Part shown: positions 24,640 through 64,000 of the stretch, piece after piece
How the letters are laid out: every line of letters starts with the position of its first letter
How positions within the stretch are numbered: the stretch's first letter is position 1
Assembly: GCA_028829895.1 (NCBI GenBank)
Contig: CM054181.1
Span: 61,902,759 to 61,966,758, forward strand
From: Sinotaia quadrata
Taxonomy: Eukaryota; Mollusca; Gastropoda; Architaenioglossa; Viviparidae
Direction: 5' to 3'
DNA: 64,000 nt
Notes under the pieces: generated by a model
What the model was told of the DNA's origin: nothing
What the model saw: only the letters and a program-made list of their open reading frames with translations
Databases searched by the model: none
Position numbers and translations under genes: made by a program

Positions 24640-24900
24640 CACACACACAGACTGAGCGTTTTGAGAATAACATTTTGAGAATAAAACCAAGTTCAGACAG
24701 AGAAAGAAACGAGGACCAAACTAAGAAAGACTAAACGCAATCACATCAGATTTCATGGCAGAAAGAATAAAGAACATTTCTATAGAAATGCATTTCATAG
24801 TTCGCAATACTTTAAAAACAAAATGCTTTCGTGTTTAAAAAAATAAAGTTTAGCGGAATTTGTAAATGTCAGTTTAGTGGATGTGTCTAATGAAGAACCA
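24640..24900. other. Upstream region of locus 1, paralogous to 36360-36600
   Basis: ATAAAACCAAGTTCAGACAG, TATAGAAATGCATTTCATAG and AGTTCGCAATA match the sequence upstream of copy 2 in order. This marks the left limit of the duplicated locus that I can see. Confidence 0.75.
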
Positions 24901-24950
24901 CGTCTCTCTCTCTCTCTCTATATATATCTAAGTAGTGACCTATCAAGCAA

Positions 24951-24984
24951 TGACGTATCATATCTGTATTCTAAGTAGTGACGT
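24951..24984 (+). promoter_or_regulatory. Paired TGACGT (CRE/ATF-like) motifs upstream of copy 1
   Basis: TGACGT occurs at 24951-24956 and 24979-24984. The second lies in TAAGTAGTGACGTG, which is identical upstream of copy 2 at 36641-36654. TGACGT is the half-site core bound by CREB/ATF-type bZIP factors. Use here as an enhancer is inference from conservation between paralogues and from position upstream of the leader exon. Confidence 0.35.
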
Positions 24985-25039
24985 GTCAAACGGTGATGTG
25001 TGCAGTATCAAATCGGAAAGTCTGATAAGTTATCGAATC

Positions 25040-25126
25040 CGAAAAAACATCAACTTTCTTGTATCGGCAAAATCATTTCTCTTTAGTTTGGGTAGTTGAA
25101 GAAGATTGGTTTTCAGGAAAAAACAG
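25040..25126 (+). other. Predicted 5' non-coding leader exon, copy 1
   Basis: The segment with TTTAGTTTGGGTAGTTGAAGA aligns with TTAGTTTGGGTGGCTGAAGA near copy 2. Both lead to a GT at the same relative place (GTATGT from 25127). A pyrimidine-rich acceptor occurs before the signal-peptide exon at 27081-27090, so a spliced leader exon is the simplest model. The transcription start is not known and the left limit is a guess. Confidence 0.45.
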
Positions 25127-25139
25127 GTATGTACATATA

Positions 25140-25432
25140 TACTTTTTATGAGTAAGGGTAGGTGGATGAGGACTCGTTAAATATAAATAAAAGATGGATT
25201 TTTTAAATTACTCCAGTAGTAAGATTTTTCCACCTGCAGAAACATGAAACAATAAAATGTCTATCTTATTGTTGTGTAAAGAGTAGAGCTTTACGACTCC
25301 CTTATAATCCGCCAAGTGAGAGACATGTTGGTCTTGTGGAAAAATTATTAATAACCAAATATTAAGATTCTCCATCACTTGCAATTATTTATGTGTTATT
25401 AATTAATAAATAATAATCATAATCAGTGAAGG
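25140..25432 (+). repeat. First-intron segment shared with copy 2 and the relict locus
   Basis: Landmarks such as AGTAAGA, ATCCGCCAAGTGAGAG, TTATTAATAAC and AATAATAATCATAATCAGT align with 38575-38930 and 48945-49310. It shows that duplication covered whole loci, not only exons. Confidence 0.75.
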
Positions 25433-26154: not shown

Positions 26155-26600
26155 TACAGTGATGTTGAGGTGAAGTTATTTTCAGTAAAGCCTTTTCGAC
26201 TAATGCATCTGCTTTATCATTGCCTGCTGTACATAAATTTGCTGGAGCCCACACTATTTTAGTTTCAATGTTTAAGTGTTTCAGTTTGTCTGATATGTTG
26301 TATATATGAAGTCTAGTCTGAGAAATTTCTGCATATATGAAGTCCGGTTATGGATGGCTGTAAGTGTTGCGAGTGAGTCTGTGACTATAATTAGTTTGTC
26401 TTTTGCGTTCCGGATTTTGTCATAAGCAGTCAAGGCTGTGGTGCTTGCCATGAGTTCTGCAGAGAATACTGATGTGTTGTCAGGGAGTAGGATGCTAATG
26501 TTGTTTGGGGATGGTTTTCCTATTCCTGATTTTCCTGATATAGGGTCACGTGACCCATCTGTGTACAAAACGTCCCAAGTGTGGTAGTCAGTAAAGCGTG
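26155..26600 (-). pseudogene. Non-LTR retrotransposon RNase H domain, frameshifted
   Basis: On the minus strand the frame reads YTDGSRDPISGKSGIG, then SVFSAELMASTTAL, then IIVTDSLATLTAI, and after a +1 frameshift near 26300 it reads VWAPANLCTAGNDKADALVEKAL. These are the four conserved blocks of a type I RNase H as found at the C-terminal end of I/R1/Jockey-like LINE ORF2 proteins: the first Asp in TDGS, Glu in SAEL, Asp in TDS, and the GN-KAD block. No reverse transcriptase is adjacent. The fragment sits in intron 1 of copy 1 and is absent from the matching intron of copy 2. Confidence 0.88.
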
Positions 26601-26624
26601 CATTGCAGCATTGCTCTTGCTAGG

Positions 26625-27107: not shown

Positions 27108-27169
27108 ATGAAAAAGGGATATGCGCACCTCGATCTTGTAATACTCTTGGTCACCATGGCAAAAGTCCG
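27108..27169 (+). CDS. Copy 1, coding exon 1: signal peptide of secreted cystine-knot-like protein
   Basis: The exon is preceded by the acceptor TTTGACCAG (to 27090) and ends at a GTAAAT donor (27170) two bases into a codon. It encodes about 20 residues with two lysines near the start and a hydrophobic core LVILLVTMA, so it looks like a signal peptide. Codon by codon it aligns with the first coding exon of copy 2 at 39858-39913: the GCG, ACC and GTC codons, the phase-2 end and the donor all match. The codon aligned with the copy 2 start is AAG here, so the start chosen is an in-frame ATG two codons earlier. Its mate exon is at 32080. Transcript evidence is lacking. Confidence 0.7.
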
Positions 27170-27539
27170 GTAAATATTTTCACTTTTTCATGTACTGTAT
27201 ATAGTTTGAAATAAATATGTAGTCTCTTACCATCTAAACTCTGAAAGTTGTTAAGTCCATTTGTAGATGTATGACAGTGTTTTCCAACAAACTGTTAATT
27301 TATTTTAAAATACTTTTGCCATCACTTATTTTGCTTTCCTTGTCCAATGTTCAAAGGCAAATAAATGTGCATACATTTTATATAAAATCGGATAAACGTA
27401 ATCCTAAACTGCCAAGATAAACATTTCACAGTTAACTTAGAGCAGATATAAGGTAGGTCCATTTGAACTATATGAATGGTCATTTTCATATGATAGACAT
27501 TCTTTATTTTAGAATGATCACGGAATTCAAAATAGACAG

Positions 27540-27780
27540 TGGTTTCACGTTGATACCATAACTATAGACAGATTTGCAGGTACGATAACTCTTCTAGAGC
27601 AAGATGTGTCACAGAGATGACATGCACACGGACAGTTTTGCCTGAACACATGTAAAATGTGTAAAATTTGTCACAAAGACCATTATCAACAGACAGATTT
27701 GCCTGACCTAACACTTAGAGGGTACGATGTGTCGCTGAGATGCCATAACTACAGACAGCTTTTCCTGAACGTTTGCCAGC
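27540..27780. repeat. Diverged tandem repeat in intron 2 of copy 1
   Basis: Three to four diverged units with ATAGACAG and TTTGCCTGA cores plus (A/T)AGAGCAAGATGTGTC-type ends. The same unit is expanded to about ten copies in the matching intron of copy 2 (40650-41420). Confidence 0.7.
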
Positions 27781-27956
27781 ATCCACCTCAACCACTCCTA
27801 TAGTCAGCAACAGATAGCAGACATCCAGACAACACTTCCCCACCCCACTCTCCCTGAATACTAGTGAAAGGAGGAAGGCCCCAGAGGAATCCACCAAAAA
27901 CTGAGAACATCGCCAAGATGAAAAGTTTTAACGCAATTCCTGTGAGGTAAAGAAGT

Positions 27957-28125
27957 TATCGGGACACTGACATCACGACTTACATCAGACACTGACACCA
28001 CGACTTACATCAGACACTGACATCACGACTTACATCAGACACTGACACCACGACTTACATCAGACACTGACACCACGACTTACATCAGACACTGACACCA
28101 CGACTTACATCAGACACCGACACCG
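27957..28125. repeat. Minisatellite, 25 bp unit, about 7 copies
   Basis: ACACTGACACCACGACTTAC plus ATCAG repeats about seven times with only ACACCAC/ACATCAC variation. Confidence 0.95.
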
Positions 28126-28129
28126 CAAC

Positions 28130-30240
28130 GCTCAACAGGAACAAAATACAACTTCAATGTCACAGAGTAATAGCGGACACATAACAGGAACACATCTCAA
28201 CGACATAAATAAAATCAACAACTGATGACAACAACAAGCAAGCAACAAGACAAAACTCCAGCACCAACACCACCACCAACTATCCCTGAATACTCGTGAG
28301 GGGAGCCGGTCCCACCGGAATACGACACATCAGAGAATGTCTTATGATGAAATGATCCACCTAAGCTCCAGTAAGGACGTAAAATTGTTATCGTAACCAC
28401 CACCTCATTAACATAACATACACACACATGCACGCACGCGCTGCGCGCGCGCGCGCACACACACACACACACAGCTCGCTAGCTCGTGGCGGGGTTTTCT
28501 ATGTTTCTGGGGCAAATTGGACTGCCAGCACTTTTTCAAGGACCCCACGGGGCGACACACACTGCACTACGAAAGTTACAATTCTGCGAAAGGATATTCC
28601 CTCTCTACACTAAAATAACAACTCTACAAAAGATACTCCTTGTCTACACCAAGTAAACAATTCTAGAAAACTCCAAAAACAAAAACTCGCCAGACCGGTC
28701 TCCCGATGGCGGCAACCTTATACGTACTCATCTAAACACTCGCTTGTCTCTACCTTCTGTTTTCTGCCTGCAGGAATCGTCAGATCTCAGATGGCTGCCA
28801 CCGAACAATAATAGATACACTCCACACCACCAGAAGACACTCCAACAAAAAACTACATCAGCTTCAAAGGGTTTTAAATTTTAACTCGTCTATAGACAAG
28901 GAAACAAGCCCAGATATGAGACAAACACTTTTCAAACCAAGCTGACTGATATACACCACCATTTTCAATCTACCGAATTACCGATTTTGAAACTGGAAAG
29001 TAGGAACACCAGAGCCACGGTCAATGCCACACCCATGTCTTTTCGGTTTTGGAAAAACATTATGTTTTACCTCCTAAAACCTTGTCATTTACAGGGCCAA
29101 GAGAGCAAAAAAGAGGTTTCTCATCACAACCGAGGTAGAGATTGAGTTCCTTATCGATAACGAACTGCACAATATATTGTTGTTAATGGAGTGCTTGACT
29201 CTAATTACTAAAAAGGAAGAGCGAGAGGAGGCTTATAACAGGACACATTTTACACTCTTCACAACGAGAAATTATTAAGGTTTACGTGAAGCTGTGACTA
29301 TAAGCACGATCCTTCAATGAAAATATTCCAAGAGTTGAACAAAGCAACTGCACAACAGAAAATGAGACAGACAACACCTGCCACTTCACGTGAGAATGAA
29401 AAAGACCAACAAAAATGAAAGTTAACTCCGCAAACAAACATGCAAGGAGGCATTCTCACAAACAACAACAGAGACAGAAGAAAAGACAATCCAAACTACA
29501 CCAGTAATGGAAAAGAAAAGAACTCACGAAAAAAACAGAAAATAGCCAACCGTCAGAAGCGAAAAAAGAAATCATCCAGATTGTCAGACATAATAAAAAA
29601 AAAAACAGACACAACGATCAAAATCGAAGCCACCCTCAATGAATACATATGGCTGCTTGAGGCTCCTTCTCTCTCACCATTAATAACAGCAGAAACAACA
29701 ACAGAGCTACCATCAAACGGGAAAAGCAACAGATGCGAGGAAAAAACAAAAGGAAAAGAGAAATAGACCGCCTCGATGCATCAGACCAGAAAACAAAACC
29801 ACGGAAGCTATGGGTGAACATCTCTAGGTAGACAGAAACGAAAAATCACGAAAAAATATCGCCCACCACCACCAACAACGACAGGTGTCCAGAAAAATCG
29901 CCCAATTTATGCACATTATACATCTGTTGCTCGATCGCCTGTACAGAGGCCTGTACTCATCTATGCACTCCTAAACGGACAACACCAGAGATAGTGACAA
30001 CGACACCAGTGAGATGGACAATGGGGTTGAACATCCCGTCCTCACCAGGTACAGACTTAGCCTGGGCTCTATAAGATATCCCCAACCAACCACTCCCCTC
30101 CAACTTCAGAGACAGCAATAACAACATCAACAGCACCAACCGCCATGACTATAGTAATCCACAGAAAACTGGGCTAGTGCATGCTTCTACTTGCCGACAT
30201 GGGGCCATATACTCACTGGCCATTATTCATTATCACTCAT
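28130..30240. other. Intron 2 insert of copy 1, unclassified
   Basis: This stretch has a different base composition (CA-rich, many ACAAC and CCACC runs) from its AT-rich surroundings and is absent from copy 2. A segment around 27815-27950 recurs near 28255-28400 (CCCTGAATACT core). A (GC)n/(AC)n tract lies at 28414-28472. A lysine-rich frame at 29440-29766 has no recognisable domain. Probably an old insertion of unknown type. Confidence 0.4.
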
Positions 30241-31144
30241 TATCAAAAACTTTTTGTGACGCCATTGCCACTTAAGTAATGAAAATGATTATTATTAATA
30301 ATTAATATTTCATAACCAATGACAAGTAATGAGAATTTTAATTTATTTTGTTAATGATCCTCCAGATAAAAACTACTCGTCTCTCTCACCTGGCGGACAT
30401 ACCGGCGCTGTAAATGTTTTCTTTCTTCCACAACATTAAAGATAAATATTTACTGTCACACAATGTTCCACAGGTGGAAAACTTCTAAAAGAGAAGACAA
30501 ATCCGACTTTAATCTATATTTAGCGAGCCCCTATCCACACACGTTTTTTCTCCAACATAAGATTATAATTATCAATATGTGTAAGAAGGTCAATAATTTT
30601 ATTAAATCAGCAATCACATATACATATGACAAATACAATGAAATAGATTACTTGACTTCACTATTTCCACTAACCCACTTATGGATACTTTCTATAATTC
30701 ACAGTCACATGTGTGAAATACGGATCAACAATAGAGTCATTACAAATCATAAGATAGTCTTAGAGAACAGAAATGGAGTTATTAGAGATAACTAATAATA
30801 GTCTTTACGTAACCTGGTTCAGCACTGTCTTAACAGTCATTCATGCACTTTGCCACAGTGTCCACAAATTAGAGTTCAGTTCAATTTCTGCATGTTTCTG
30901 AGCTACCGGAAGTGGTTGACCTCAATTGTTGTGTTGTTCGAATTATCCATTCCGGGTGACCAACATGGTTATTAGGTAGAAATATGAAATGATTAATACC
31001 GTGGTGAAGTAAATTATGCCTATCTCTATTTCTAAACTTAATAATTATATATTTGATGCCAATGTTTACGTGACCCAACTGTGGGCACTGCTTGTGATTA
31101 TATTTTTGTATTAATGCCCGAGTTGGAGTACACTAGTCATTGAG

Positions 31145-31930
31145 ATAGATACGAGATGTAGGGATTAATCGGAACACGTTATCTGGGCAGTCATGTGAAC
31201 ACGATATCTGGGCAGTCATGTGAACACGTTATCTGGGCAGTCATGTGAACACGATATCTGGGTAGTCATGTGAACACGATATCTGGGCAGTCATGTGAAC
31301 ACGATATCTAGCCAGTGAAGTGTATATGATATATATTCAGTCATGTAAACATAGTATCCAGTCAGTGATGTGAACATGATTTATAAAGGCAAGATCGTAA
31401 ACACGATATATAAAGGCAGGATTGTAAACACGATATATAAAGGCAGGATTGTAAACACGATATATAAAGGCAGGATTGTAAACACGATATATAAAGGCAG
31501 GATTGTAAACACGATATCTAGGCAGTCGTGTGAAGACGTAATCCAGGCAGGAATGTGAACAATAGATCTAATCAGTCATATGAACCCGCTATCTAGGCAG
31601 ACAGGTGAACACGTAACTAGGCAGTCGTGTGAATATGACATCTAGGCAGTTATGAGAACACTGTATCTAGGCGGTCGTGTGAATATACTATGTTTGCAGT
31701 CATGGTGAATATGACATCTAGGCAGTCCTATGAACACGGTATGTAGGCAATTATGTGAACATACTATCTAAACATTCTTGTGAATATGATATATGTGCAG
31801 TTATGTAAATATGATATTTATGAAATAATGTGAACACGGTATCTAGGAAGTCAGGTGATATATTATCCATGCAGTCATGTAAATATGATATCTATGCAGT
31901 CCTGTGAACACGGTATCTAGTCAGATAATT
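31145..31930. repeat. Degenerate minisatellite, about 25-27 bp unit, about 30 copies
   Basis: Units of the form GTGAACACGATATCTGGGCA plus GTCAT run through the 3' end of intron 2. A homogenised sub-block with a 27-bp period (TATATAAAGGCAGGATTGTA) lies at 31383-31510. Diverged units of the same type occupy the 3' part of the matching intron in copy 2. Confidence 0.92.
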
Positions 31931-32079
31931 TCAAATTGTATTTAAGTGTCACCACAACACTTTGCATCATATGCATTACACGATCGTAGTTGTAATAATT
32001 GAAAACTAATTGCCAGTAAAATGTAACGATGATTATTAACAAACATTGATGATTTTATTTTTGTCTTCTGTACATTTAG

Positions 32080-32494
32080 TACTATAGGGGATTGCACCAA
32101 CAATGGATTTATGTGTGAAACCGACTCTAATTGCTGCAGCCTATTGTGTAATAAGCACGGCTTCTGTCACAAAGGATATCCGGGTACGAATTTAGATCCC
32201 AAGGAAATAGACAAGGAGAATCCAGGAATACTTCCCGGGTATGAAAGACCGGATACGAATTTAGATCAGAAGGAAATAGACAAGGAGAATCCAGGGATAC
32301 GTCCCGGGAATGAAGGATTTCCTTTACCCCATACAATTCCCGGACCCTTTGGCCCTGTCACTGAAAAACCATCCAATGACTTTGAAAATGACTTTGAAAA
32401 ACCAACCAATGACTTTGATAAACCACCCAATGACATTGACAACCCATTCATTCTATTCAATGGCATCCCTACACCTTACCCCGTACTCGGTTAA
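32080..32494 (+). CDS. Copy 1, coding exon 2: cystine-knot-like domain plus Pro/Asn/Asp tail
   Basis: After an ACATTTAG acceptor the first base completes the codon left by exon 27108-27169, so phases agree; the model totals 158 residues. Six cysteines follow at spacing C-x6-C-x5-CC-x3-C-x5-C (first Cys codon 32093). This is the C-C-CC-C-C pattern known from inhibitor-cystine-knot peptides, including toxins, antimicrobial and protease-inhibitor peptides. Next come GYPGTNLD and a duplicated 17-codon block with KEIDKENPGI, then an acidic Asn/Pro stretch (FEND/NDFDKPPNDID) ending TPYPVLG. The C-terminal HCPRR motif seen in copies 2 and 3 is absent. The secreted location is inferred from exon 1. 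A function cannot be assigned. Confidence 0.72.
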
Positions 32495-39857: not shown

Positions 39858-39913
39858 ATGGTATTTGCGTACCTAGTTCTGGCAGTCTTCTTGGACACCA
39901 CTTCCACAGTCTG
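39858..39913 (+). CDS. Copy 2, coding exon 1: signal peptide of secreted cystine-knot-like protein
   Basis: The exon follows an acceptor at 39835-39836 (alternative CTACAG at 39826) and ends at a strong GTAAGG donor at 39914, two bases into a codon. It encodes 18 full codons starting with a plain ATG; the core YLVLAVFL is hydrophobic and the end is small and polar (DTTSTV), as in a short signal peptide. Exon start, reading frame, phase and donor all align with copy 1 exon 27108-27169. The upstream non-coding part TGCCAGAA is identical in both copies. The mate exon is at 43662. Confidence 0.75.
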
Positions 39914-39959
39914 GTAAGGATTTGTACTTTTCATTCACTCTACGTCATTTACAATAAAT

Positions 39960-40240
39960 ATTTAACCTCTTCATAGCTGAACTCTAATAGAACATGTCTA
40001 TTTAACCTCTTCATAGCTGAACTCTAATAGAACATGTCTATTTAACCTCTTCATAGCTGCTCTAATAGAACATGTCTATTTAACCTCTTCATAGCTGAAC
40101 TCTAATAGAACATGTCTATTTAACCTCTTCATAGCTGCTCTAATAGAACATGTCTATTTAACCTCTTCATAGCTGAACTCTAATAGAACATGTCTATTTA
40201 ACCTCTTCATAGCTGAACTCTAATAGAACATGTCTATTTT
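39960..40240. repeat. Minisatellite, about 36-40 bp unit, 7 copies
   Basis: CTATTTAACCTCTTCATAGC plus TGAACTCTAATAGAACATGT repeats seven times; two units lack four bases. Confidence 0.95.
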
Positions 40241-40326
40241 TCCCCAAGATATGTGACAATCTTCAAGCCAATAGTTAATTTATTTGAAAATACATATGCC
40301 ATTACTTATTTTGCTCAGCCTGTCTT

Positions 40327-40525
40327 ATGCTAATAGCTAAACTATTATTTTGTACAATAACAATACATATATTCTATATAAAAAAAACTATTATTTTGTA
40401 CAATAACTATACATATATTCTATATAAAAAAAAACTATTATTTTGTACAATAACTATACATATATTCTATATAAAAAAAACTATTATTTTGTACAATAAC
40501 TATACATATATTCTATATAAAAAAA
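40327..40525. repeat. Minisatellite, about 47-52 bp unit, 4 copies
   Basis: ACTATTATTTTGTACAATAA plus CTATACATATATTCTATAT and a poly(A) stretch repeats four times. Confidence 0.93.
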
Positions 40526-40649
40526 CGGCTAAACATGATCCAAAACTGAACATGGTAAACAGTGTAATTAGACCAGATCAGACCTAAAACAGTTCTATTT
40601 GAATTATATGGATGGACAGTTTTTTATTATATATATTATTTATTTTCGA

Positions 40650-41420
40650 ATGATCTTGGAATTCGAAATGGATAGTTGTGTCACTAAAATAACATAAATA
40701 TGAAGAGTTTTTCATGACATTTATCTCTCACGGATCAAGATATGTCACTGAAATAGCATAACTATAGAGAGGTTTGCCTGGCATTTATCTCTCATATGAC
40801 AAGACGTGTCACTGAATCAGTATAACTATAAAGAGTTTTGCCTGACATTTATCTATCATAGGGCAAGACGTGTTACTGAATCAATATAACTATAGAGAGT
40901 TTTGCCTGACATTTATCTATCATAGGGCAAGACGTGTTACTGAATCAATATAACTATAGATAATTTTGCCTGACATTTATCTATCATAGGGCAAGACGTG
41001 TTACTGAATCAATATAACTATAGAGAGTTTTGCCAAACATTTATCTATCATAGGGCAAGACGTGTTACTGAATCAATATAACTATAGATAATTTTGCCTG
41101 ACATTTACCTCTCATATGGCAATGTGTCACTGAGATATCATACGAATTGACAGTTTTGTCTGACCTTTAACACTTACAGGGCAAAATGTGTAACTAAGAT
41201 ACAATGACCATAGACAGTTTTGCCTGACCTTTAACAATTAGAGGGCAAGACGTGTCACTGAGATACAATGACTATAGACAGTTTTTCCTGACCTTTAACA
41301 CTTATTGGGCCAGATTTGTCATACATATATCATACATATTTACAGTTTTGACTGATCTTTAATACATGTAGTTCAGAATGGGTCACATAGCTACCCTACC
41401 TACAGACAGTTTTTTCAAAC
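40650..41420. repeat. Tandem repeat, about 65-75 bp unit, about 10 copies
   Basis: ATAGGGCAAGACGTGTTACTG, CAATATAACTATAGA and TTTTGCCTGACATTTATCT repeat. The middle five copies are nearly identical and outer ones diverge. The same unit is present in low copy number in copy 1 at 27540-27780. Confidence 0.9.
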
Positions 41421-41779
41421 CTTAATACGTTTGACTTTCGTTTAGTCGATAATTCTAACTTGGGAATAAGGTTTCTTTAAGTTCCAGAGATAGAACTATA
41501 ACTCTGATTTCTGATTAATTCCCTAAAAACTTCAGAATGCCTTTTCTTTAATTATCTACATAATCACAATTCCTTCTGTTTAATTGCACAAATAATCACA
41601 TTACCTTCTGTCTCAAACTAAATAATTACATTACTGTCTGTCTCAATCTAAATAACCACAACACCGTCTGTCTCAAATTAAAAAATAACGTTATTTTATA
41701 TTTAACTGCGTGAATCTTTACTCTGATTAAGATGAAAGTACACATTAATTTCTCTCTTATTGACTTTATAATCACTCTC

Positions 41780-42110
41780 TGGCTTATTATTTCAACAGTC
41801 ACATTACTATCAGGCCTATTATCTCAACAGTCACATTACTTTCAGGCCTATTATTTCAACAGTCACTTTAGGTTCTGGCCTATCTTAACAGTCAAATTAC
41901 TTTTAGGCCTATTATCTCAACAGTAAATTTACTTTCTGGCATTTTATTTCAACAGTCACATTACTTGCAGGCCTATTATCTCAATAGTCACTTTACTTCA
42001 GGACTATTATCTCAACAGTCACTTTACTTTCTGGCCTATCATCTCAACAGTCACTTTACTTTCTGGCCTATCATATCAACAGTCACTTTACTTTCTGGCT
42101 AATACACGAA
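41780..42110. repeat. Minisatellite, about 31 bp unit, about 10 copies
   Basis: CTATTATCTCAACAGTCAC plus TTTACTTTCTGGC repeats with modest variation. Confidence 0.92.
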
Positions 42111-42279
42111 ATAATGAAATTATGGTCGAATGTTTCCAAGTGATATGAAATGACAAAAGTAGAAGTGATACTAAATAAACGAATAATGCCAATTGTACAG
42201 TACAATCATAAGGAATGCAAAACTGGAGAAAATGCACATAACTGTTGAATTACTCTTCATGTAGAAATAATAAAAGTAT

Positions 42280-43500
42280 TTCCAGGCAGATATGCGAAAA
42301 CCTTTTACTGTGTAGAGATATAAATAAGTTATTATATAAACATATTTACTGTATAGAAATATAAATATGGTTACTATGTAGATATATAAACTGGCTATTA
42401 TTTAGAAATATAAACATGATAACTGTGTAGATATAAAAAATGGCTACTGTTTAGAAATATATACATGGTTACTAAATATAAATGTGAATGTTAACAAAAC
42501 ACGATGTAGAAACATGACGTAATTACTTGTAAAAGCACGATGTAGAAACATGACGTATTTACTCGTAGAAAAATGAGCGTGATCTACTAGGTTAACCTTC
42601 GAGATTGTTTCCAGGTAAGAATGCCAAACACTATCTCCATGGAAATAAGAACGTAACAGATATGTCTTTTAGTTAAAAACTTGATCATGGTTAATAGGTA
42701 TAAATATGAACATACTTGTTAAATAAGGTGACTTGTAAGAAAGTCATATTTACTAGTTAGTAATGTGAACACATTTATTTGTTAGAAAGTGGATCATGAT
42801 TACTATGCATATGTATATGAACATAGTTCCTACGTAGAAATGTGAATAAGTTGACTAGTTAAAAACTTGACCATGGTTATTTATTAAACATATGTACGTA
42901 GTTGTTACGTATAAATATTAATACGGTAGATAGTTAGAACCTAGACCAAGGCTAATGGATAGAAATGTGAAAACAGTTACTAGTTAGAAATTGGGCCATG
43001 GCTATTAAGCAAAAATATATAAAGATTAGTAGTTTAAAATTTGTTCATATAACTGGGCAAATTGGTGATCAGGTATGGCTCCTGGATACATTTTTATTAG
43101 TTTCTTATTAGAAATGCTATGATGGATATTCAATCTAAATGTGAACGTGGTTTAAAGCCAGAAATTTAATAATGATTATTTTCATAAGTTTAATCGTGGC
43201 TAGTGGGTAGAAATGTGAACGTAATTGCAACCCAGAAATGCAAATAATAATTATTTTTAGAAATTTAGTAGAAATGTGATCATGTAAAAATATCTGATTG
43301 TGTTTTAATTTGTTAGGCATGTTTTAACATGTTACGATGCTAATCTGGTTACTAGATGGAACTGTAAGCATGATTTAAAAGATTAAGATGTGAATCTGGT
43401 TACTAGGTAGAAATATAATTATGATTTAATAGGTTAAGGTGTTAATAGGGTTACTAGGTAGAAATGTAGATACATTATATAACCAATCTTGTGAGTACGG
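42280..43500. repeat. Degenerate repeat field in intron 2 of copy 2
   Basis: GTTACTAGGTAGAAATGTGA-like units recur every 30-50 bases with heavy divergence up to about 43520, just before the last exon. Copy 1 has a cleaner array in the same place. Confidence 0.65.
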
Positions 43501-43661
43501 TATCCAGTCAGATAATTTCTATTTTAATGTGTGTCACAACACTCTCCATCATATGATTTATAAGTTCTTAGTTGAAAGAATTAAAACTAAATGCCCGTAA
43601 AGTTTTACCAATGACTCTTAACAAGTATCGATGATTTAAAAATTTTCTCTTGTATACTCAG

Positions 43662-45429
43662 GTGTTCAAGATTAAATTGCACCAAGGATGGATTTATTTG
43701 CCAGATCAACTCGGACTGCTGTTCCCACATGTGTTCTGACTATTGCTTCTGCCACCATGGTGTTCCGGGTACTAATTTAGATCTCAAGACAATACTCAAA
43801 GCCAATCCCCATTTATATCCCCATCTTAAAGCCTATCTGAACCCCGATCCCAATGTCAATCCTGGTTCCAGTCTCACTATATTTAATTCCGGTCCCAATG
43901 TCAATCTCGGTTCCAAGGTCTATCCCAAACCCAACTGCATGTATGTTTACGGCCCTCTTCCCGATGAGTTCGATCCCAGTCTCAATGCCAATCCTAGTCC
44001 CATTAAGTTCAATCCAAATTCCAATGTCAATCCCCATCTCAATAGACCCAATCCCAGTCCAAATAGTTTCAATCCAAATCCCAATGTCAATCCCCATCTC
44101 AATAGGCCCAATCCCAGTCCCAATAGTTTCAATCCAAATCCCAATGTCAATTCCCATCTCAATAGACCCAATCCCAGTCCCAATAGTTTCAATCCAAATC
44201 CCAAAGTCAATCCCCATCTCAATAGGCCCAATCCCAGTCCCAATAGTTTCAATCCAAATCCCAATGTCAATCCCCATCTCAATAGGCCCAATCCCAGTCA
44301 CAATAGTTTTAATCCAAATCCCAATGTCAATCCCCATCTCAATAGGCCCAATCCTAGTCCCAATACTTTCAATCCAAATCCCAATGTCAATCCCCATCTC
44401 AATAGGCCCAATCCCAGTCACAATAGTTTCAATCCAAATCCCAATGTCAATCCCCATCTCAATAGGCCCAATCCCAGTCACAATAGTTTCAATCCAAATC
44501 CCAATGTCAATCTCCATCTCAATAGGCCCAATCCCAGTCACAATAGTTTCAATCCAAATCCCAATGTCAATCCCCATCCCAATAGGCCCAATCCCAGTCA
44601 CAATAGTTTTAATCCAAATCCCAATGTCAATCCCCATCTCAATAGGCCCAATCCTAGTCCCAATACTTTCAATCCAAATCCCAATGTCAATCCCCATCTC
44701 AATAGGCCCAATCCCAGTCACAATAGTTTCAATCCAAATCCCAATGTCAATCCCCATCATAATAGGCCCAATCCCAGTCACAATAGTTTCAATCCAAATC
44801 CCAATGTCAATCCCCATCTCAATAGGCCCAATCCCAGTCACAATAGTTTCAATCCAAATCCCAATGTCAATCCCCATATCAATAGGCCCAATCCCAGGCC
44901 CAATAGTTTCAATCCAAATCCCAATGTCAATCCCCATCTCAATAGGCCCAATCCCAGTCACAATAGTTTCAATCCAAATCCTAATGTCAATCCCAGTCCC
45001 AATAGTTTCAATCCAAATCCCAATGTCAATCTCCATCTCAAGAGGCCCAATCCCAGTCCCATTAGTTTCAATCCAAATCCCAATGTCAATCCCCATCTCA
45101 ATAGGCCCAATCCCAGTCACAATAGTTTCAGTCCAAATCCCAATGTCAATCCCCATCTCAATAGGCCCAATCCCAGTCACAATAGTTTCAATCCAAGTCC
45201 CAATGTCAATCCCCATCTTAATAGGCCCAATCCCAGTCACAATAGTTTCAATCCAAATCCCAATGTCAATCCCATACCCAATAGATTCAATCCCAGTCCC
45301 AATGTCAATCCCAGTCCCAATATAAATTTCAGTCTCAATGTCTATCCCGGTCCCAATGTCAATCTCAGTCCCAATGTCAATTTCAGACCTAATGTATTCA
45401 ACCCCAATCCCAATCGGTTCAATCCCTAG
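43662..45429 (+). CDS. Copy 2, coding exon 2: eight-Cys knot-like domain plus long Asn/Pro repeat tail
   Basis: After a TGTATACTCAG acceptor the first base completes the phase-2 codon of exon 39858-39913; the model totals 607 residues. Eight cysteines lie near the start at spacing C-x4-C-x6-C-x5-CC-x3-C-x3-C-x1-C (first Cys codon 43663). The six that align with copy 1 keep the C-C-CC-C-C cystine-knot order, and GVPGTNLD follows. From about 44010 there are about twenty units of 60 bp (20 residues, NPNPNVNPHLNRPNPSHNSF with P/H, L/P/I and S/T variants), then shorter PNVN repeats. The stop at 45427-45429 seems premature, because repeat-like sequence continues in another frame to an HCPRR motif. 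Role unknown; an extracellular peptide or matrix protein is inferred. Confidence 0.78.
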
Positions 45430-45615
45430 TCCCGATTGACTCAATCCCAGTTTCAATGTCAATCCTAGTCGTAATAGGTTCAATCCCAATCCCAATGTTA
45501 ATCATGGTACCAGTAAGTTCATTCCCAGTCCCAATGTTAATCCCAGTCCCAATATCAATCATTGTCCAAGGAGAATAACTCAATTCTTATTTCTTCCCTC
45601 TCAGTCGCAATAAAA
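45430..45615 (+). pseudogene. Decayed 3' end of the copy 2 repeat tail
   Basis: Beyond the stop, codons for Asn, Pro and Ser in the same rhythm continue in the +1 frame, with a TGA near the junction. They reach HCPRR at about 45560-45574 and a stop at about 45609. HCPRR also occurs just before the natural stop of copy 3, so this looks like former coding sequence cut off by a small indel. Confidence 0.6.
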
Positions 45616-50650: not shown

Positions 50651-50659
50651 CATACATAT

Positions 50660-51240
50660 TTTCAGTTGTATTTTCACATACAGTCTATCATCACAGCACA
50701 GTGACATTCCTTACTAAAATTGCCATCTCTCACTCCCGCACTGTCAACTATTCTGACATAAACACTGTAGACGCTCACAAGTGTACTGCCAAACATCATG
50801 ATGTAGACACATTAGTCCGTCATGACTGTACTAAATCCATCACCTGGATATCGCCATCTCTCAACAAACACTGCAATATCTAAACCCATTTAGCAATTGC
50901 AGTCTCCATGAGGGGCCGAATTTTTGTTTTACTCACGGTTGTATAATATCGCCTATTCAAATTCGTATGAGTTGATGGCAATATTACTTCAAAATTAATT
51001 TTATAGTTGTTCATTTTACATTTAATTCACAATGTTTTGATATCATAAATACTACTTGTCCAAAACATTTGTGTTATCATAAATTCTACCCAAAATGGAA
51101 ACCAAAGGTATTTCCAACAACGTCTAAAGGTCTTTTGCAAAATGACGTAACAACATGACTTTTCTAGTAGTTATGACAATTTTGTACCCACAGACTTGAT
51201 GATGCTCTAAGAGCTGTGCAACAATACTACGCATTAAATA
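50660..51240. other. Intergenic DNA, no gene seen
   Basis: No repeat or coding feature recognisable. Confidence 0.5.
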
Positions 51241-51560
51241 CAATATATATTTATGTAAAATGCCCAAATACCCATGATAACAAAAAGTAATCCATCTATA
51301 TTAGGAATTAATAAGAAAGATATTTATGCAAAATTCCCATACACACATTAAAACCAAAAGTAATCCAACAACATTTCAAATTAAATAATAAAGATATTTA
51401 TGCAAAATGCCCATTTAGCAATAAAAACAGAAAATAATCCAACAATATTACAAATTAAAAGCGAAAAATATTTATCAAAATGCCAATATAACAATGGAAC
51501 ATAAAGTAATCCGACAATATTATAAATTAAATACGAAATATATTGATGTCAAATGCCCAG
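51240..51560. repeat. Diverged tandem repeat, about 80 bp unit, 4 copies
   Basis: GATATTTATGCAAAATGCCCA and AAAGTAATCCAACAATATT recur four times with considerable drift. Confidence 0.8.
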
Positions 51561-57960: not shown

Positions 57961-58187
57961 TAGGAATGAATCATACTTCCTCCTTTTCTAGTGAAGTAAT
58001 ATTCTTAATTTAATGTTTTATTGTGTTGACCCTTTTCGACTGGTTGCTGGGGAATTCTGACTCCATAATGGCAGCTACTTTTTTTTCGTGCATATGTGGA
58101 CATTGTACATAAATATATTTCGTATTTAATGTGTAATATCGTTGGATTACTTTTGTTTTCGTGGGTATTTGGACGTTGTACATAAAT

Positions 58188-58272
58188 ACTTGAGAAAGGT
58201 CTAAGCGGTTTCCAATAATATTTCGTATTTAATGTACAATATTATTGGAAACCGCTTAGACCTTTCTCAAGT
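58188..58272. repeat. Perfect palindrome, 35-bp arms and 15-nt loop
   Basis: The arm ACTTGAGAAAGGTCTAAGCG and the next 15 bases (58188-58222) are exactly complementary to 58238-58272. The loop is TCGTATTTAATGTAC. Either transcript would form a perfect hairpin. Confidence 0.95.
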
Positions 58273-58779
58273 CTGTGTGCTGAAATTTGTCTTAAATACT
58301 AGAAAAGGCATGATGGGGGTCGAATCTTAATGACCTTCATGCCAGGTCACGCCAATTTATCGCAGCCAACCACTTACACCAAAGTATTATTAATTATACA
58401 ACAGATTCAAGGTATTATAATGGGTTGAATATTGATATCACAAATTGATTGTTAATATGACAATTCGTGCTAATGGTATCGTAAAAATTGTGAATTTAAA
58501 TGTAAAACGGCCAATATACAATGAATTTTGAAGTAGTATCACCATCTACACAAAATAATTTGAATATGTGGTATAATACAAACTGAAATGTAATAAAACC
58601 GTAAATAAAACGAAGAAGGCCGCTCAGAGAGACTACAATTGCTGTACGGGGTTTTGTTGAGAGTTGGCGATAGGGCAGCATGGTTGTTAGTGCTGTGGTG
58701 AAGGACTACAGTGTTTTACGTCAGGATGGTTGGCATTTTAGAAATGAGAGATGGCAATTTTAGGTGCGGAAATGTCAGT

Positions 58780-59445
58780 ACCGCTGTGAGGGTTGAAAGT
58801 ATGTAAAAATAAAGCTGGAAATATGAATTGTCAGTACCGTAGTGAGGGTTGACAGTATGTAAGAGTAAAGCTGGAAATATGAAATGTCAGTACCGTAGTG
58901 AGGGTTGACAGTATGTAAGAGTAAAGCTGGAAATATGAAATGTCAGTACCGTAGTGAGGGTTGACAGTATGTAAGAGTAAAGCTGGAAATATGAAATGTC
59001 AGTACCGTAGTGAGGGTTGACAGTATGTAAGAGTAAAGTTGGAAATATGAAATGTCAGTACCGCTGTGAGGTTGTAAAAATAAAGCTGGAAATATGAAAT
59101 GTTAGTACCGCTGTGAGGTTGTAAAAATAAAGCTGGAAATATGAAATGTCAGTACCGCTGTGAGGTTGTAAAAATAAAGCTGGAAATATGAAATGTCAGT
59201 ACCGCTGTGAGGTTGTAAAAATAAAGCTGGAAATATGAAATGTTAGTACCGCTGTGAGGTTATCTAAAAATAAAGCTGGAAATATGAATTGTCAGTACCG
59301 CAGTGAGGGTTGACAGTATGTAAAAATAAAGTTGGAAATATGAAATGTTAGTACCGCTGTGAGGTTATCTAAAAATAAAGCTGGAAATATTAAATGTCAG
59401 TACCACTATGAGGTTATAAAAATAAAGCTGGAAATATGAAATGCA
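58780..59445. repeat. Minisatellite with 56-bp and 45-50-bp unit versions, about 12 copies
   Basis: AAATGTCAGTACCG(T/C)(A/T)GTGAGG and AAAGCTGGAAATATG recur. Early units carry GTTGACAGTATGTAAGAGT; later ones have the shorter GTTGTAAAAAT link; one long unit returns near 59285. Confidence 0.95.
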
Positions 59446-59638
59446 GCTTTATGGTCAGGGAAGCTGTTTCAGTCAATGATGGCGGACCTTTTGTTTCATA
59501 TTTCGACCTTGCTTTCTTGGAACATGCACAGTATGTGCTCATCGTGAGTGCATAGACGTAATCGATTACCTCCCTTAAAGAATTCTTGTTTATATCTCTA
59601 ATAATTGCGCACACAAAATCTCTCCATGATGTCTGCAA
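59414..59638 (-). pseudogene. Conserved coding-like block in the inverted duplicate
   Basis: The minus-strand frame reads MQTSWRDFVCAIIRDINKNS, then LREVIDYVYALTMSTYCACS and KKARSKYETKGPPS before entering the neighbouring minisatellite. Its partner at 50455-50590 keeps DINKNSL-EVIDYVY. It could be a decayed exon or part of an old mobile element. I do not recognise the family. Confidence 0.4.
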
Positions 59639-60790
59639 AAAGGTCCTTTAACTCTGACACTTAGGTTTCGATCAGAAATGTCTTCACTTTCATTAGCAAC
59701 ATAGTAAATGAATATGAACAAGTTAGAAGACCACGCATGGGGGGGGGGGGGGTTCATATGTTTGTATGTAGTAGGGAGTGTACACAGTCTTAGCTGCAGA
59801 GCAGAATGTAAGATGTAATATTAAACATCTACAAGATATTGCAGAGCAGTGAGCAGGAAATAATACCGAACGTGTACAAGATAGTGTAGAGAAGTGTGAA
59901 GGAAGTAAAATTGAACATGTAGAATATATTGTAGGGATGTGCTCTAGGGTACTGTCATAGTGCTCTGTAAGCAGATTAAATATACATCACATCTTGTCAT
60001 GTATTCTTTATAACTTAACCTGGTTATCGTTTGTTTATGAATGGACCCAATTAAAAATGTCTAAAGCCGGTAAATTCAACAACAAAACCGCGGAAGAACT
60101 TTTTCTATCGTTTATTCAAAGAGAGTTTCTTTAATTCTATAGAAAAAGAGAATTTTTTTTTTTTTATACTGGGGTCAAATTGACTACGTCACTGAACTCA
60201 ATGGTGACGTGAACCAGCACTAAGTCTGCGTAGGAAATCCCTGGCGATGCTTGCGGCCGCGCAGGTGGTGTTGTCTGAAATGAATTTGAAATGTATGCAT
60301 GCGTTTGAATGTGCGATCGGGTATGTACGAGATGTGTTTGTGTATTTGTATCATTGTGTGTGTGCGCGCGTTTGAACGAGTATAAGTTTGCGTTTGAGTG
60401 TTTGTATTATGAATTAGTGTATTTATGTATCCGTATGCGCGCGTATATTTATAGATGAATGTGTATATCATTTGCATATGTACGTGAGCGAGCGTATGCG
60501 TGTGTGTTTGTTTGCGATAATAATTAGTGATTTAATAACTTAAACTTAAAGTTTCATGAAAGTGAAGAGTAGGTTGAACAAGTCCCACTCACATTTCAAA
60601 ACTAGGACACGACCAGCGCTTCTCACTATGGTATTTTACGTATGCAGCTCACGTTTTAAGTAGACCAGGTATTTAAATCACAACACAGCTTTTACTTCAA
60701 GTGGAGTCGTCCTCTACCTTCACTAGTACCCTCCACTTTCATGAGATTTGTCATCACCCATGATAGTAGGGGACGTTACTGCTAGAAAAT
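59440..60790 (-). repeat. Inverted duplicate of 49330-50650, downstream of copy 3
   Basis: Read on the minus strand this block follows the 3' flank of copy 3 and matches 49330-50650 in order. A 14-base poly(G) run lies at 59739-59752. Confidence 0.8.
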
Positions 60791-60809
60791 CTTGAGCATG
60801 ATAATAGAA

Positions 60810-60810
60810 C

Positions 60811-60845
<35 letters not shown>
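60810..60845. repeat. (GATA)n microsatellite
   Basis: About nine GATA repeats. Confidence 0.95.
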
Positions 60846-61073
60846 CTAACTTCTAACGAGCGGCTAAAAACAAATATACTTTCTCAGTAACAAATCCACA
60901 AAGGCCTTGGAATTTATCAACGTCACCGACCTTGACATATATTTTAGGTAAGGTCGGGAGAGTCGTGCTTAGGAGATAATTTGTACTTTCATTCATCAGG
61001 AATTAAGGACTGCAGGAAATACTGATTTGGCAGTTCATCAAAGTAAGGAAACCAACCCCAGCATCAGAATCAC

Positions 61074-61096
61074 ACACACATACACACGCGCGCGCG

Positions 61097-61127
<31 letters not shown>

Positions 61128-61155
61128 ACACACACACACGTGTATATATATATAT
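61074..61155. repeat. (AC)n/(GC)n/(TA)n compound microsatellite
   Basis: Alternating CACA and CGCG blocks, ending in a short TATATA run. Purine-pyrimidine alternation makes it a possible Z-DNA former. Confidence 0.93.
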
Positions 61156-61485
61156 GCATTTGTGTGTGTATTAGTTATTTATGTGTGCTATTTTATTATT
61201 TTTCATTTTAATTCTGGAAGCAGTGGCAAACAATAGAGAAGAGTGTTCCAAATTTTACGGAAGAAGATAAACATACACTGGCAGACAATAGAGAAGCGTT
61301 TACAGTAGGAAAACAAACATAGCATTCAAAACAATAATTAGCATTCTTTTAGAAATTACGAGCCTTCGACATTTTGTTATTTTCGGCTCAAATCCTCTGA
61401 AATTTTCTTAATACATTTTGTTTCCTTTTAAGTTAATAATTACTAGTTGTCTTTCCTTTCTTTCCTTGTAAAATAAAGTTTGTGT

Positions 61486-61491
61486 TTTATT
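61486..61491 (-). terminator. Conserved poly(A) signal AATAAA, copy 3
   Basis: On the minus strand TTAATAAAACAC is followed by GGAAAGAAAGGAAAGACAAC and TAATTATTAA, aligning with the signals of copies 1 and 2. The 3' UTR between 61730 and 61860 (minus) shares AAACTGTTTTTGAA and GCAACAAAA with both other copies. Confidence 0.65.
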
Positions 61492-61923
61492 AAATTAACT
61501 GCATTAAGGGTATACTGAATTTAACTGTCAATTTTGCTGGGACGCATATACAGTAGATTAACAGACAAATAGACAGAAAAATTATAGAAATTAGATAAAT
61601 TATACAAAATCATACAGACACAAAGTTCCGTTTTTACAGTTTATTAGCATGAAGAAGAATGCAGTGTCCTGTCACAAGTTCAGTTTAGGAACACGAAACA
61701 GCATGTAGTGTCCTGTAGTGCAGTTCAAGGACAAATAATACTTTTGTTGCCATTGCGTTCAAAAACAGTTTACAGAGGAAAGATTTTAAAATTATAATTA
61801 TTTTTAAAAATATCTACCCATCTCTACTCCTGCAATGTGATGGTCGTTTTATAGCTGGCTGGGAAAGCGATCGCTAATTGTATTTTTATAGGCGAGGGAA
61901 GATATAGAGATTGGGATTGGGAT

Positions 61924-64000
61924 TCACCACTTTCTACGGGGACAGTGAGAGCCTTTGGAATCGGGATTGACATTGGAACCGGGATAGACGTTAGAACCGG
62001 GATAGACATTAGTACCAGGATAGAAATTATAACCAAGATCGAAACCGGGATAGACATGAGAACGAGAATTGAAATCTGGATATACATTAGAGTCAGGATT
62101 GAATCCGGGATAGACTTTAGAACCAGGATTGGAACCGGGATAGACGTTGGAACCGGGATAGACAATAGAACCCGGATTGAAACCGGGATAGACATTAGAA
62201 CCAGGATTGAAACCGGGATAAACATTAGAACCAGGATTGAAACCGGGATTAACATTAGAACCAGGATTGGAACCGGGATTAACATTAGAACCAGGATTGA
62301 AACCGGGATAGACATTAGAACCAGTATTGGAACCGGGATAGATGTTGGAACCGGGATTAACATTAGAACCAGGATTGGAACCGGGATTAACATTAGAACC
62401 AGGATTGAAACCGGGATTAACATTAGAACCAGGATTGAAACCGGGATAGACATTAGAACCAGAATTGGAACCGGGATTAACATTAGAACCTGGATTGAAA
62501 CCGGGATTAACATTAGAACCAGGATTGGAACCGGGATTAACATTAGAACCAGGATTGAAACCGGGATAGTCATTAGAACCAGGATTGGAACCGGGATAGA
62601 TGTTGGAACCGGGATTAACATTAGAACCAGGATTGGAACCGGGATTAACATTAGAACCAGGATTGAAACCGGGATTAACATTAGAACCAGGATTGAAACC
62701 GGGATAGACATTAGAACCAGGATTGGAACCGGGATAGATGTTGGAACCGGGATTAACATTAGAACCAGGATTGAAACCGGGATAGACATTAGAACCAGAA
62801 TTGGAACCGGGATTAACATTAGAACCTGGATTGAAACCGGGATTAACATTAGAACCAGGATTGGAACCGGGATTAACATTAGAACCAGGATTGAAACCGG
62901 GATAGACATTAGAACCAGGATTGGAACCGGGATAGATGTTGGAACCGGGATTAACATTAGAAACAGGATTGAAACCGGGATAGACATTAGAACCAGGATT
63001 GGAACCGGGATAGATGTTGGAACCGGGATTAACATTAGAACCAGGATTGGAACCGGGATTAACATTAGAACCTGGATTGGAACCGGGATTAACATTAGAA
63101 CCAGGATTGGAACCGGGATTAACATTAGAACCAGGATTGAAACCGGGATAGACATTAGAACCAGGATTGGAACCGGGATAGATGTTGGAACCGGGATTAA
63201 CATTAGAACCAGGATTGGAACCGGGATTAACATTAGAACCAGGATTGAAACCGGGATTAACATTAGAACCAGGATTGAAACCGGGATAGACATTAGAACC
63301 AGGATTGGAACCGGGATAGATGTTGGAACCGGGATTAACATTAGAACCAGGATTGGAACCGGGATTAACATTAGAACCAGGATTGAAACCGGGAATAATA
63401 TTAGAACCAGGATTGAAACCGGGATAGACATTAGAACCAGAATTGGAACCGGGATTAACATTAGAACCTGGATTGGAACCGGGATTAACATTAGAACCAG
63501 GATTGAAACCGGGATAGACATTAGAACCAGGATTGGAACCGGGATTAACATTAGAACCAGGATTGGAACCGGGATAGATGTTGGAACCGGGTTTGACATT
63601 GGAACCGGGATAGACATTGGAACCGGGATAGACGTTGGAACCGGGTTTCACATTAGAACCGGGATAGACGTTGGAACCGGGTTTCACATTAGAACCGGGA
63701 TAGACGTTGGAACCGGGTTTCACATTAGAACCGGGATAGACGTTGGAACCGGGATAGACATTGGAACCGGGTTTCACATTAGAACCGTGATAGACATTAA
63801 AACCGGGTTTCACATTAGAACCGGGATAGACATTGGAACCGGGTTTCACATTAGAACCGGGATAGACGTTGGACCCGGGATAGACATTGGAACCGGGATA
63901 GACATTGGAACCGGGATAGACGTTGGAACCGGGTTTCACATTAGAACCGGGATAGACGTTGGAACCGGGTTTCACATTAGAACCGGGATAGACGTTGGAA
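61924..64000 (-). CDS. Copy 3, 3' part: secreted-family protein with PGSN repeats (partial, runs off window)
   Basis: The minus-strand frame is open from the right edge to a TGA at 61924-61926, about 690 codons. It consists of PGSNVYPGSNVKPGSN-type repeats, then 10-residue NPGSNVNPGF units in longer repeating blocks, and ends in NPDSKGSHCPRRKW. The frame was chosen because it matches the GSxVYP and PNVN phrasing of copy 2, because HCPRR recurs in the copy 2 tail region, and because the downstream 3' UTR and poly(A) signal align with copies 1 and 2. The signal peptide and any cysteine domain would lie beyond base 64000, so membership of the cystine-knot family is inference. Another long frame (61824-63617) exists only because the period is a multiple of three. 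Confidence 0.7.
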   Translation of the reverse strand, partial: SNVYPGSNVKPGSNVYPGSNVKPGSNVYPGSNVYPGSNVYPGSNVYPGSNVKPGSNVYPGSNVKPGFNVYHGSNVKPGSNVYPGSNVYPGSNVKPGSNVYPGSNVKPGSNVYPGSNVKPGSNVYPGSNVYPGSNVKPGSNIYPGSNPGSNVNPGSNPGSNVYPGFNPGSNVNPGSNPGSNVNPGSNSGSNVYPGFNPGSNIIPGFNPGSNVNPGSNPGSNVNPGSNIYPGSNPGSNVYPGFNPGSNVNPGFNPGSNVNPGSNPGSNVNPGSNIYPGSNPGSNVYPGFNPGSNVNPGSNPGSNVNPGSNPGSNVNPGSNPGSNVNPGSNIYPGSNPGSNVYPGFNPVSNVNPGSNIYPGSNPGSNVYPGFNPGSNVNPGSNPGSNVNPGFNPGSNVNPGSNSGSNVYPGFNPGSNVNPGSNIYPGSNPGSNVYPGFNPGSNVNPGFNPGSNVNPGSNPGSNVNPGSNIYPGSNPGSNDYPGFNPGSNVNPGSNPGSNVNPGFNPGSNVNPGSNSGSNVYPGFNPGSNVNPGFNPGSNVNPGSNPGSNVNPGSNIYPGSNTGSNVYPGFNPGSNVNPGSNPGSNVNPGFNPGSNVYPGFNPGSNVYPGFNPGSIVYPGSNVYPGSNPGSKVYPGFNPDSNVYPDFNSRSHVYPGFDLGYNFYPGTNVYPGSNVYPGSNVNPDSKGSHCPRRKW

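Follow-up and report, generated by a model that had tools for sequence, protein, structure and literature searches.

Conotoxin genes of eight superfamilies contain three exons and introns of more than 3 kb, and the second intron, which lies near the mature peptide, is of phase 2 in six of these eight superfamilies, the exceptions being I2, with introns of phase 0 and 1, and T; genes of the A superfamily have two exons and a single intron within the pro-region (PMC3862624; here and below, statements from the literature refer to excerpts of the cited papers). In scorpion genes for inhibitor cystine knot peptides a phase 2 intron splits the start of the mature peptide (PMC3694633). Cysteine-rich segments are also known from structural proteins. 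The byssal protein Dbfp5 of the quagga mussel joins a repeat region that is predicted to be disordered to a six-cysteine region, and Pro, Gly, Tyr and Asn are abundant in several of the Dbfps, which have sizes of 4.3-21.8 kDa (PMC6474901). High contents of Pro and Gly have been tied to disorder, hydration and elastic recoil (PMC5703643), and the repeats of the Plasmodium vivax CSP have been discussed as elastic, with a place in the transition region that separates amyloid-prone from elastomeric sequences (PMC8809896). Here we describe a small predicted gene family of the viviparid snail Sinotaia quadrata that would combine properties of both groups. It is situated in a stretch of 64,000 nucleotides of contig CM054181.1 (assembly GCA_028829895.1, positions 61,902,759 to 61,966,758), called the window in the following, and is made up of two complete two-exon gene models, m1 and m2, with predicted proteins of 158 and 607 amino acids, and the tail and 3' end of a third member, m3. 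The window is AT-rich, with a GC content of 0.29-0.44 in 2-kb steps, and contains many tandem and dispersed repeats.

Like inhibitor cystine knot peptides, m1 and m2 have six cysteines in the order C-C-CC-C-C and are predicted to be secreted, and like many cone snail and scorpion knottin genes they have a phase 2 intron just before the knot exon. In contrast to knottin peptides, m1 and m2 have a tail, of 98 and 548 amino acids, respectively, attached to the head, and a significant sequence match is lacking. The likeness to conotoxins (PF02950, PF08087 and PF17557) comprises the cysteine order and the long introns, and the position of the head directly after the signal together with an added C-terminal piece is shared with the precursors of the I2 conotoxins only. 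However, the scores stay below the three Pfam cut-offs (14.7 versus 25.1, 13.0 versus 24.3, and at most 10.0 versus 27 bits), m1 and m2 have two exons instead of three, and the repeat tail is far longer than a postpeptide; m1 and m2 are not classed as conotoxins. The best weak Pfam match of m1 is UPF0506 (PF11703), which covers the cysteine part only and does not reach its cut-off (14.9 versus 23.2 bits); the papers listed under this name concern flatworms. Dbfp5, compared by description and not by alignment, resembles the two models in having a repeat region beside a six-cysteine region, but its repeats are N-terminal and of another kind, and its cysteines are central. The likeness to elastin-like and other Pro/Gly elastomers and to the Plasmodium CSP, namely tandem units rich in Pro and Gly or in Pro and Asn, is compositional and not by descent, and to our knowledge no knot head has been described for any of these. 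Black widow dragline silk contains small proteins of the cysteine-knot type, the CRPs, which are modelled as cystine slipknots and for which a mechanical role has been proposed; unlike m1 and m2 they are separate small proteins, and no repeat tail is mentioned in the excerpt (PMC7397007).

The spacing C-x6-C-x5-CC-x3-C-x5-C (6-5-0-3-5), with short loops in the order C-C-CC-C-C, is present in both the m1 and the m2 head, twice in the window compared to not once in 60 windows generated with a first-order Markov model. We take this spacing to be that of inhibitor cystine knots, with loops of typical size. A looser pattern is found three times, versus once across all 60 Markov windows; its third match (29886-29966) lies inside the m1 intron and was taken as chance. 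The m1 protein has six cysteines in all, while m2 has eight in the domain, including one inserted into the core and a further one encoded ahead of it (43663-43665), and one in the tail. The two cores, DCTNNGFMCETDSNCCSLLCNKHGFCHKGYPGTNLD in m1 and NCTKDGFICQINSDCCSHMCSDYCFCHHGVPGTNLD in m2, differ at 32 of 108 bases (13, 5 and 14 at the first, second and third codon positions), which changes 16 of the 36 residues. None of the six shared cysteines has been lost, although three of them show a silent TGC/TGT change. In neutral simulations (20,000 runs from each copy, with kappa 2 and the base composition of the window assumed) the joint outcome of at most 16 residue changes, retention of all cysteines and no stop codon had a probability of 0.00025 starting from m1 and 0.00035 starting from m2, three criteria that were combined after the data were seen; singly, the probabilities were 0.03 for the residue changes, 0.004 for the cysteines and 0.27-0.29 for the absence of stops. 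The NG86 estimates of nonsynonymous (dN) and synonymous (dS) divergence are 0.31 and 0.80 for the core, and 0.37 and 0.68 when 13 further codons are included. By the kinds of base changes it has undergone, the knot exon carries a protein-level signal.

Sequence searches of the PDB listed 5, 4 and 9 distinct sequences with E values of 0.059-7.5. Judging from the depositors' names, we take these to be toxin or knottin-type peptides. With a best E value of 0.059 none is a significant match to a known knottin, which still leaves room for the fold. The Pfam matches had E values of 0.034 (UPF0506), 0.061 (Conotoxin) and 2.2 (Conotoxin_I2) for m1 and 0.07 (LRV_2), 0.11 (Toxin_18) and 1.0 (Conotoxin_I2) for m2, all of them below the respective cut-offs. 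The heads of m1 and m2 are predicted inhibitor cystine knots on the evidence of their spacing, not of sequence matches.

The similarity of m1 and m2 extends over the 5' flank (94/117 bases, 80.3%), exon 1 (43/61, 70.5%), both intron ends (70.0% and 71.4%), the knot core (76/108, 70.4%) and the 3' untranslated region (UTR; 110 of 142 aligned bases, 77.5%). The 3' UTR and an aligned AATAAA signal are common to m1, m2 and m3. The splice donors are CCG|GTAAAT after 27169 (m1) and CTG|GTAAGG after 39913 (m2), the acceptors ...TTTAG before 32080 and ...CTCAG before 43662; as the exon count was read from the sequence, a small in-frame exon within the intron is possible. Coordinates and splice sites thus bear out the original prediction of two two-exon models that share a signal-like exon, a phase 2 intron, the cysteine order, the motif GxPGTNLD, the 3' UTR and the poly(A) signal. 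The third member, for which the same type of tail and 3' flank had been proposed, shares the 3' UTR and AATAAA, but its tail, rich in Asn, Gly, Pro and Ser, differs in kind. Its stop codon is situated at 61924-61926 on the minus strand, and its 5' part, with any knot and first exon, would lie outside the window, beyond base 64000. Collinear blocks of 67-85% identity are found downstream of m2 and m3 in opposite orientation (45609-51559 versus 61884-58076), with none between about 46250 and 49306; therefore, m2 and m3 appear to form the two halves of an inverted duplication. Judged by these alignments, m1, m2 and the partial m3 are gene models related by duplication. A dispersed repeat of about 0.2-0.4 kb, with copies that are 70-77% alike, occurs ahead of each of the two complete models, inside the intron of m1 and again in the interval from m2 to m3 (25162-25427, 30255-30678, 38580-38929 and 48883-49310), and it may have helped the duplications.

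Table 1. Positions, within the window, of the parts of the three gene models and of the inverted duplication.
Feature	Position	Strand	Basis or remark
m1 exon 1, signal-like, MKKGYAHLDLVILLVTMAKV + 2 nt	27108..27169	+	no other signal-exon candidate within 8 kb upstream; homolog of m2 exon 1
m1 phase 2 intron, 4910 bp	27170..32079	+	GT..AG; both ends align to m2 intron
m1 exon 2, encoding knot domain, GYPGTNLD and tail of 98 aa; ends in TAA	32080..32494	+	neutral simulation on core
m1 six-cysteine core C-x6-C-x5-CC-x3-C-x5-C	32093..32167	+	
m1 in-frame 69-nt tandem duplication, copying P(G/D)TNLD motif	32180..32317	+	six codons differ, one silently
m1 AATAAA	33072..33077	+	aligned with m2 and m3
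m2 exon 1, signal-like, MVFAYLVLAVFLDTTSTV + 2 nt	39858..39913	+	homology to m1 exon 1; upstream scan
m2 phase 2 intron, 3748 bp	39914..43661	+	GT-AG
m2 exon 2, encoding eight-cysteine head, GVPGTNLD and Pro/Asn tail of 548 aa; ends in TAG	43662..45429	+	
m2 core, six-cysteine spacing as m1, plus inserted Cys	43678..43752	+	
m2 60-nt (20-aa) repeat array, consensus PNPSHNSFNPNPNVNPHLNR	43988..45321	+	
Repeat array beyond m2 stop, other frame, reaching HCPRR	45430..45560	+	resembles m3 C-terminus
m2 AATAAA	45988..45993	+	aligned with m1 and m3
m3 repeat tail (PGSN/PGFN, also YPG and KPG), C-terminal GSHCPRRKW; ends in TGA	61924..64000	-	
m3 AATAAA	61486..61491	-	aligned with m1 and m2
Inverted duplication arm 1, downstream of m2: separate collinear blocks, 67-85% identity	45609..51559	.	
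Inverted duplication arm 2, downstream of m3	58076..61884	.	

Exon 1 of both models is supported by a scan for an ATG, a hydrophobic core and a phase 2 donor. Within 8 kb upstream of each knot exon one such candidate per gene was found, and the two candidates are a homologous pair. Four hydropathy cut-offs between 2.7 and 1.6, which were chosen after the pair had been seen, all gave this result. At the strictest cut-off the whole window contains five candidates on the plus strand, including the two exons, and one on the minus strand. The hydrophobic 9-mers have mean Kyte-Doolittle values of 3.03 and 2.81, and we infer that exon 1 encodes a signal peptide. The start codon is not common to both genes: the ATG of m2 aligns to AAG in m1, and the ATG of m1 lies two codons upstream. 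A 21-nt match to the leader of m2 exon 1 at 46652, inspected by eye, was discarded as not exon-like.

The tails differ between the paralogs in length and in kind. That of m2 contains 25% Pro and 31% Asn and consists mostly of the 20-aa unit PNPSHNSFNPNPNVNPHLNR, and that of m3, with a length of at least 691 amino acids, contains 22% Asn, 18% Gly, 18% Pro and 16% Ser as well as 44 Tyr, with 114 PG[SF]N, 67 NPG, 41 YPG and 9 KPG motifs. Pro and Gly together account for 35.9% of the m3 tail and 25.9% of the m2 tail (nearly all of it Pro), next to 22-31% Asn. Both are thus tandem repeats high in Pro and Gly as in elastomers of the Pro/Gly type, a comparison for which we have seen no numerical threshold. 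The giant Pro/Asn tails of the original prediction are found in m2 and, with Gly and Ser added, in m3, but not in m1, whose 98-aa tail contains 19% Pro, 10% Asn and 19 acidic residues. In m1, the 69-nt in-frame duplication has copied the TNLD motif. The best-scoring arrays have periods divisible by three in six of six cases inside the predicted coding sequences versus 20 of 48 outside; the six are not independent, with two arrays each in m1, m2 and m3, and the outside group includes the array that crosses the m2 stop (45228-45559, with a period of 57). An open frame over an array is weak evidence by itself, since the m2 consensus unit can be read without a stop in three of its six frames. The stop codons of m1, m2 and m3 all lie at different places relative to the common UTR, and past the m2 stop the array reaches, in another frame, HCPRR, matching the m3 end GSHCPRRKW; m2 looks C-terminally truncated relative to m3. 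A further 69-nt tandem array with WYRIANGRIFNYISFIALAKMCV units at 2947-3699 (plus strand) is open for 250 amino acids without coding evidence, which shows how long arrays stay open in this window. Composition probably accounts for its match to the Pfam choline-binding repeat, which exceeds the cut-off of 27 bits (36.7 bits, E 3.3e-09).

Relatives of the family were not detected. Against a set of 5.77 billion proteins, the whole m1 protein yielded 14 candidates and residues 1-140 of m2 yielded 69, none with an E value of 10 or lower; this search covers proteins that have exact 5-residue words in common with the query and are 0.55-1.75 times as long, so members with other tail lengths would be missed. 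The set includes animals from NCBI and UniRef (Octopus, Pomacea, Ciona), and a hAT transposase used as a control had 432 matches, of which the best 120 were listed; therefore, the absence of m1 and m2 relatives counts. None of 20 pattern matches in viral contigs was confirmed, and neither RNA families nor tRNAs (scanned at the bacterial setting) were found in the window. No relative was found in the excerpts on abalone shell matrix (PMC6003135), SCREPs (PMC6262176), octopus skin mucus (PMC10138644) and limpet adhesion (PMC7333891), the last two of which name a 'cystine knot, C-terminal' domain. A literature text search for the motif letters PGTNLD retrieved no paper, and no family with a knot and a Pro/Asn tail was present among the matches listed from titles and abstract openings. 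The domain named in the octopus and limpet papers is presumably another fold. For the tails, matches to bacterial repeat proteins in NCBIfam and Pfam were rejected as compositional. They fall in 43663-45426 and, on the minus strand, 61927-63999, and comprise PspC (E 2.9e-26, but 92.5 bits versus a cut-off of 500) and TspB (24.2 bits, above the Pfam cut-off of 20), so that such repeats can get wrong names from automatic annotation. An LpxD-type hexapeptide beta-helix for m3 (E 0.00025, 20.3 versus 207 bits) was rejected by judgement, most hexads containing Pro-Gly. Within the limits of these searches, no named family with this pairing of head and tail was among the database and literature matches listed, in agreement with the original remark that no such family was known.

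The spacing of the head, the composition of the tails and the parallels to byssus and silk lead us to favor secreted structural proteins. We tentatively propose that a small disulfide-knotted head anchors a long, disordered, hydrated and extensible tail in mucus, a matrix or a glue, a reading that we regard as quite possible, though we would not call it probable. Exon 1 would act as the signal peptide. Within the secretory pathway the head would adopt the fold of an inhibitor cystine knot, and it would bind a partner or a surface. Rich in Pro together with Asn or Gly, the tail would stay disordered and hydrated in an elastin-like manner. Chains could be cross-linked by the extra cysteines, of which the m2 head has two and the m2 tail and the m3 C-terminus one each, and by the 44 tyrosines of m3. 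Unequal exchange would change the length and composition of the tail, so that the polymers of the paralogs would differ in size and charge. A more specific version, which we consider doubtful, is that a toxin-type cystine knot caps the end of a secreted elastomer and provides the point at which its chains are cross-linked; the knot would be held, while the polymer block would be free to differ among the sister genes of the cluster, being Pro/Asn in m2 and Pro/Gly/Tyr in m3.

Several observations weigh against secreted structural proteins of this kind. All three members are known here from their DNA alone. The knot exon is no more similar in DNA (70.4%) than the intron ends, and less similar than the 3' UTR and the 5' flank; therefore, the coding case rests on which bases changed. 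Exon 1 has diverged without constraint, with 12 of 18 residues different compared to a neutral mean of 10.3, a dN of 0.43 and a dS of 0.48 (NG86). AlphaFold, supplied with two sequences, returned two models with a mean pLDDT of only 58.3 and 55.6, and Foldseek, applied to the m2 model, found no knottin and a single non-knottin match with an E value of 9.9. The predicted inhibitor cystine knot is supported by the spacing; the models are too poor to confirm it. The tail of m1 is short, acidic and only partly repetitive. Differences between the m2 units (15 units, 44047-44946) are silent in 6 of 23 cases versus an expected fraction of 0.227, a count of differences and not of independent events that indicates no constraint at the residue level, and the six codon differences between the 69-nt copies of m1 include one silent change. 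Taken with the array periods divisible by three, the frame of the tails seems to be kept while single residues are free. The proposal of a lineage-specific secreted family with a small domain and a fast-evolving tail agrees with the duplications, the signal in the cysteine exon, the fast tails and the lack of detectable relatives; the tails, however, are not of one kind. Finally, I2 conotoxins also have their peptide right after the signal and a short C-terminal piece, so the head-first order is compatible with a peptide weapon.

Several of these points could also be explained by decay: m1, m2 and m3 would be young paralogs that once were coding and now drift, with arrays that grew by replication slippage and are open by chance. 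The neutral drift of exon 1, the differing start codon and three stop positions, the m2 array that runs beyond its stop in another frame, and the non-coding-looking array at 2947-3699 that is also open for 250 amino acids would all fit. Yet a decaying pair would hardly be expected to keep six of six shared cysteines with silent codon changes in a core without stops (P about 0.0003), to conserve GT/AG sites and UTRs in both copies, and to have coding-sequence arrays with periods divisible by three, so that we regard decay as rather unlikely. We find it unlikely as well that the head is a bioactive knottin, be it venom-like, antimicrobial or an inhibitor of proteases or channels, with a tail that is a carrier or is removed. 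The toxin and knottin-type names of the PDB sequences and the weak Pfam matches to Conotoxin, Toxin_18 and Conotoxin_I2 point in this direction, as does the fast change in exon 1 and the loops, but the matches are weak and track the cysteine spacing. The phase 2 intron near the mature peptide has its counterpart in conotoxin (PMC3862624) and scorpion inhibitor cystine knot genes (PMC3694633), and I2 conotoxins lack a pro-region and have a short C-terminal postpeptide (PMC3862624). However, the conotoxin genes described consist of three exons, except for those of the A superfamily with two and an intron in the pro-region, whereas m1 and m2 have two exons and no pro-region was seen; tails of 98-548 amino acids far exceed a short postpeptide, and a dibasic site between head and tail is absent from both m1 and m2. 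Very improbable is a multi-copy precursor from which each repeat is excised as a small peptide, as the regularity of the 20-aa units and the single Arg of the m2 consensus might suggest, because this Arg precedes Pro, the units are wholly different between the paralogs, and the m2 tail has only one dibasic pair and the m3 array none. The RRK at the m3 C-terminus lies outside that array, and the scarcity of dibasic pairs and of sequons (none in m1, two in m2, none in m3) speaks against both such a precursor and heavy N-glycosylation.

Two sequences of the mobile-element type are also present in the window. An open reading frame for a hAT transposase (13960-14853, minus strand; PF05699, E 3.3e-05) is, among the best 120 of its 432 matches, 89-90% identical to proteins assigned to the tunicate Ciona intestinalis, the snail Pomacea and the freshwater mussel Potamilus, across roughly 70% of its length, and 48-50% identical to three proteins of two Octopus species (48-49%) and one protein of another mussel, Sinanodonta. 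Horizontal transfer of the element from one animal phylum to another is a candidate explanation. The named matches come from animals, which by itself makes an animal origin of the window likely, although a mobile element does not settle the species. An RNase H domain fragment (26281-26619, minus strand; PF00075, E 4.6e-07), about 0.5 kb upstream of m1 exon 1, probably belongs to a retroelement.

If the knot indeed caps and cross-links an elastomer, m1, m2 and m3 would represent a new class of animal structural protein, in which the knot is not used as a drug-like peptide. If the genes are expressed, the cystine knot and the repeat elastomer, both of which are well studied, would be united in one small gene, and the neighboring copies would catch the polymer block in the course of being replaced while the anchor stays. 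The family would thereby bear on how proteins of mucus, glue and silk, or knottin toxins, may newly originate within a lineage.

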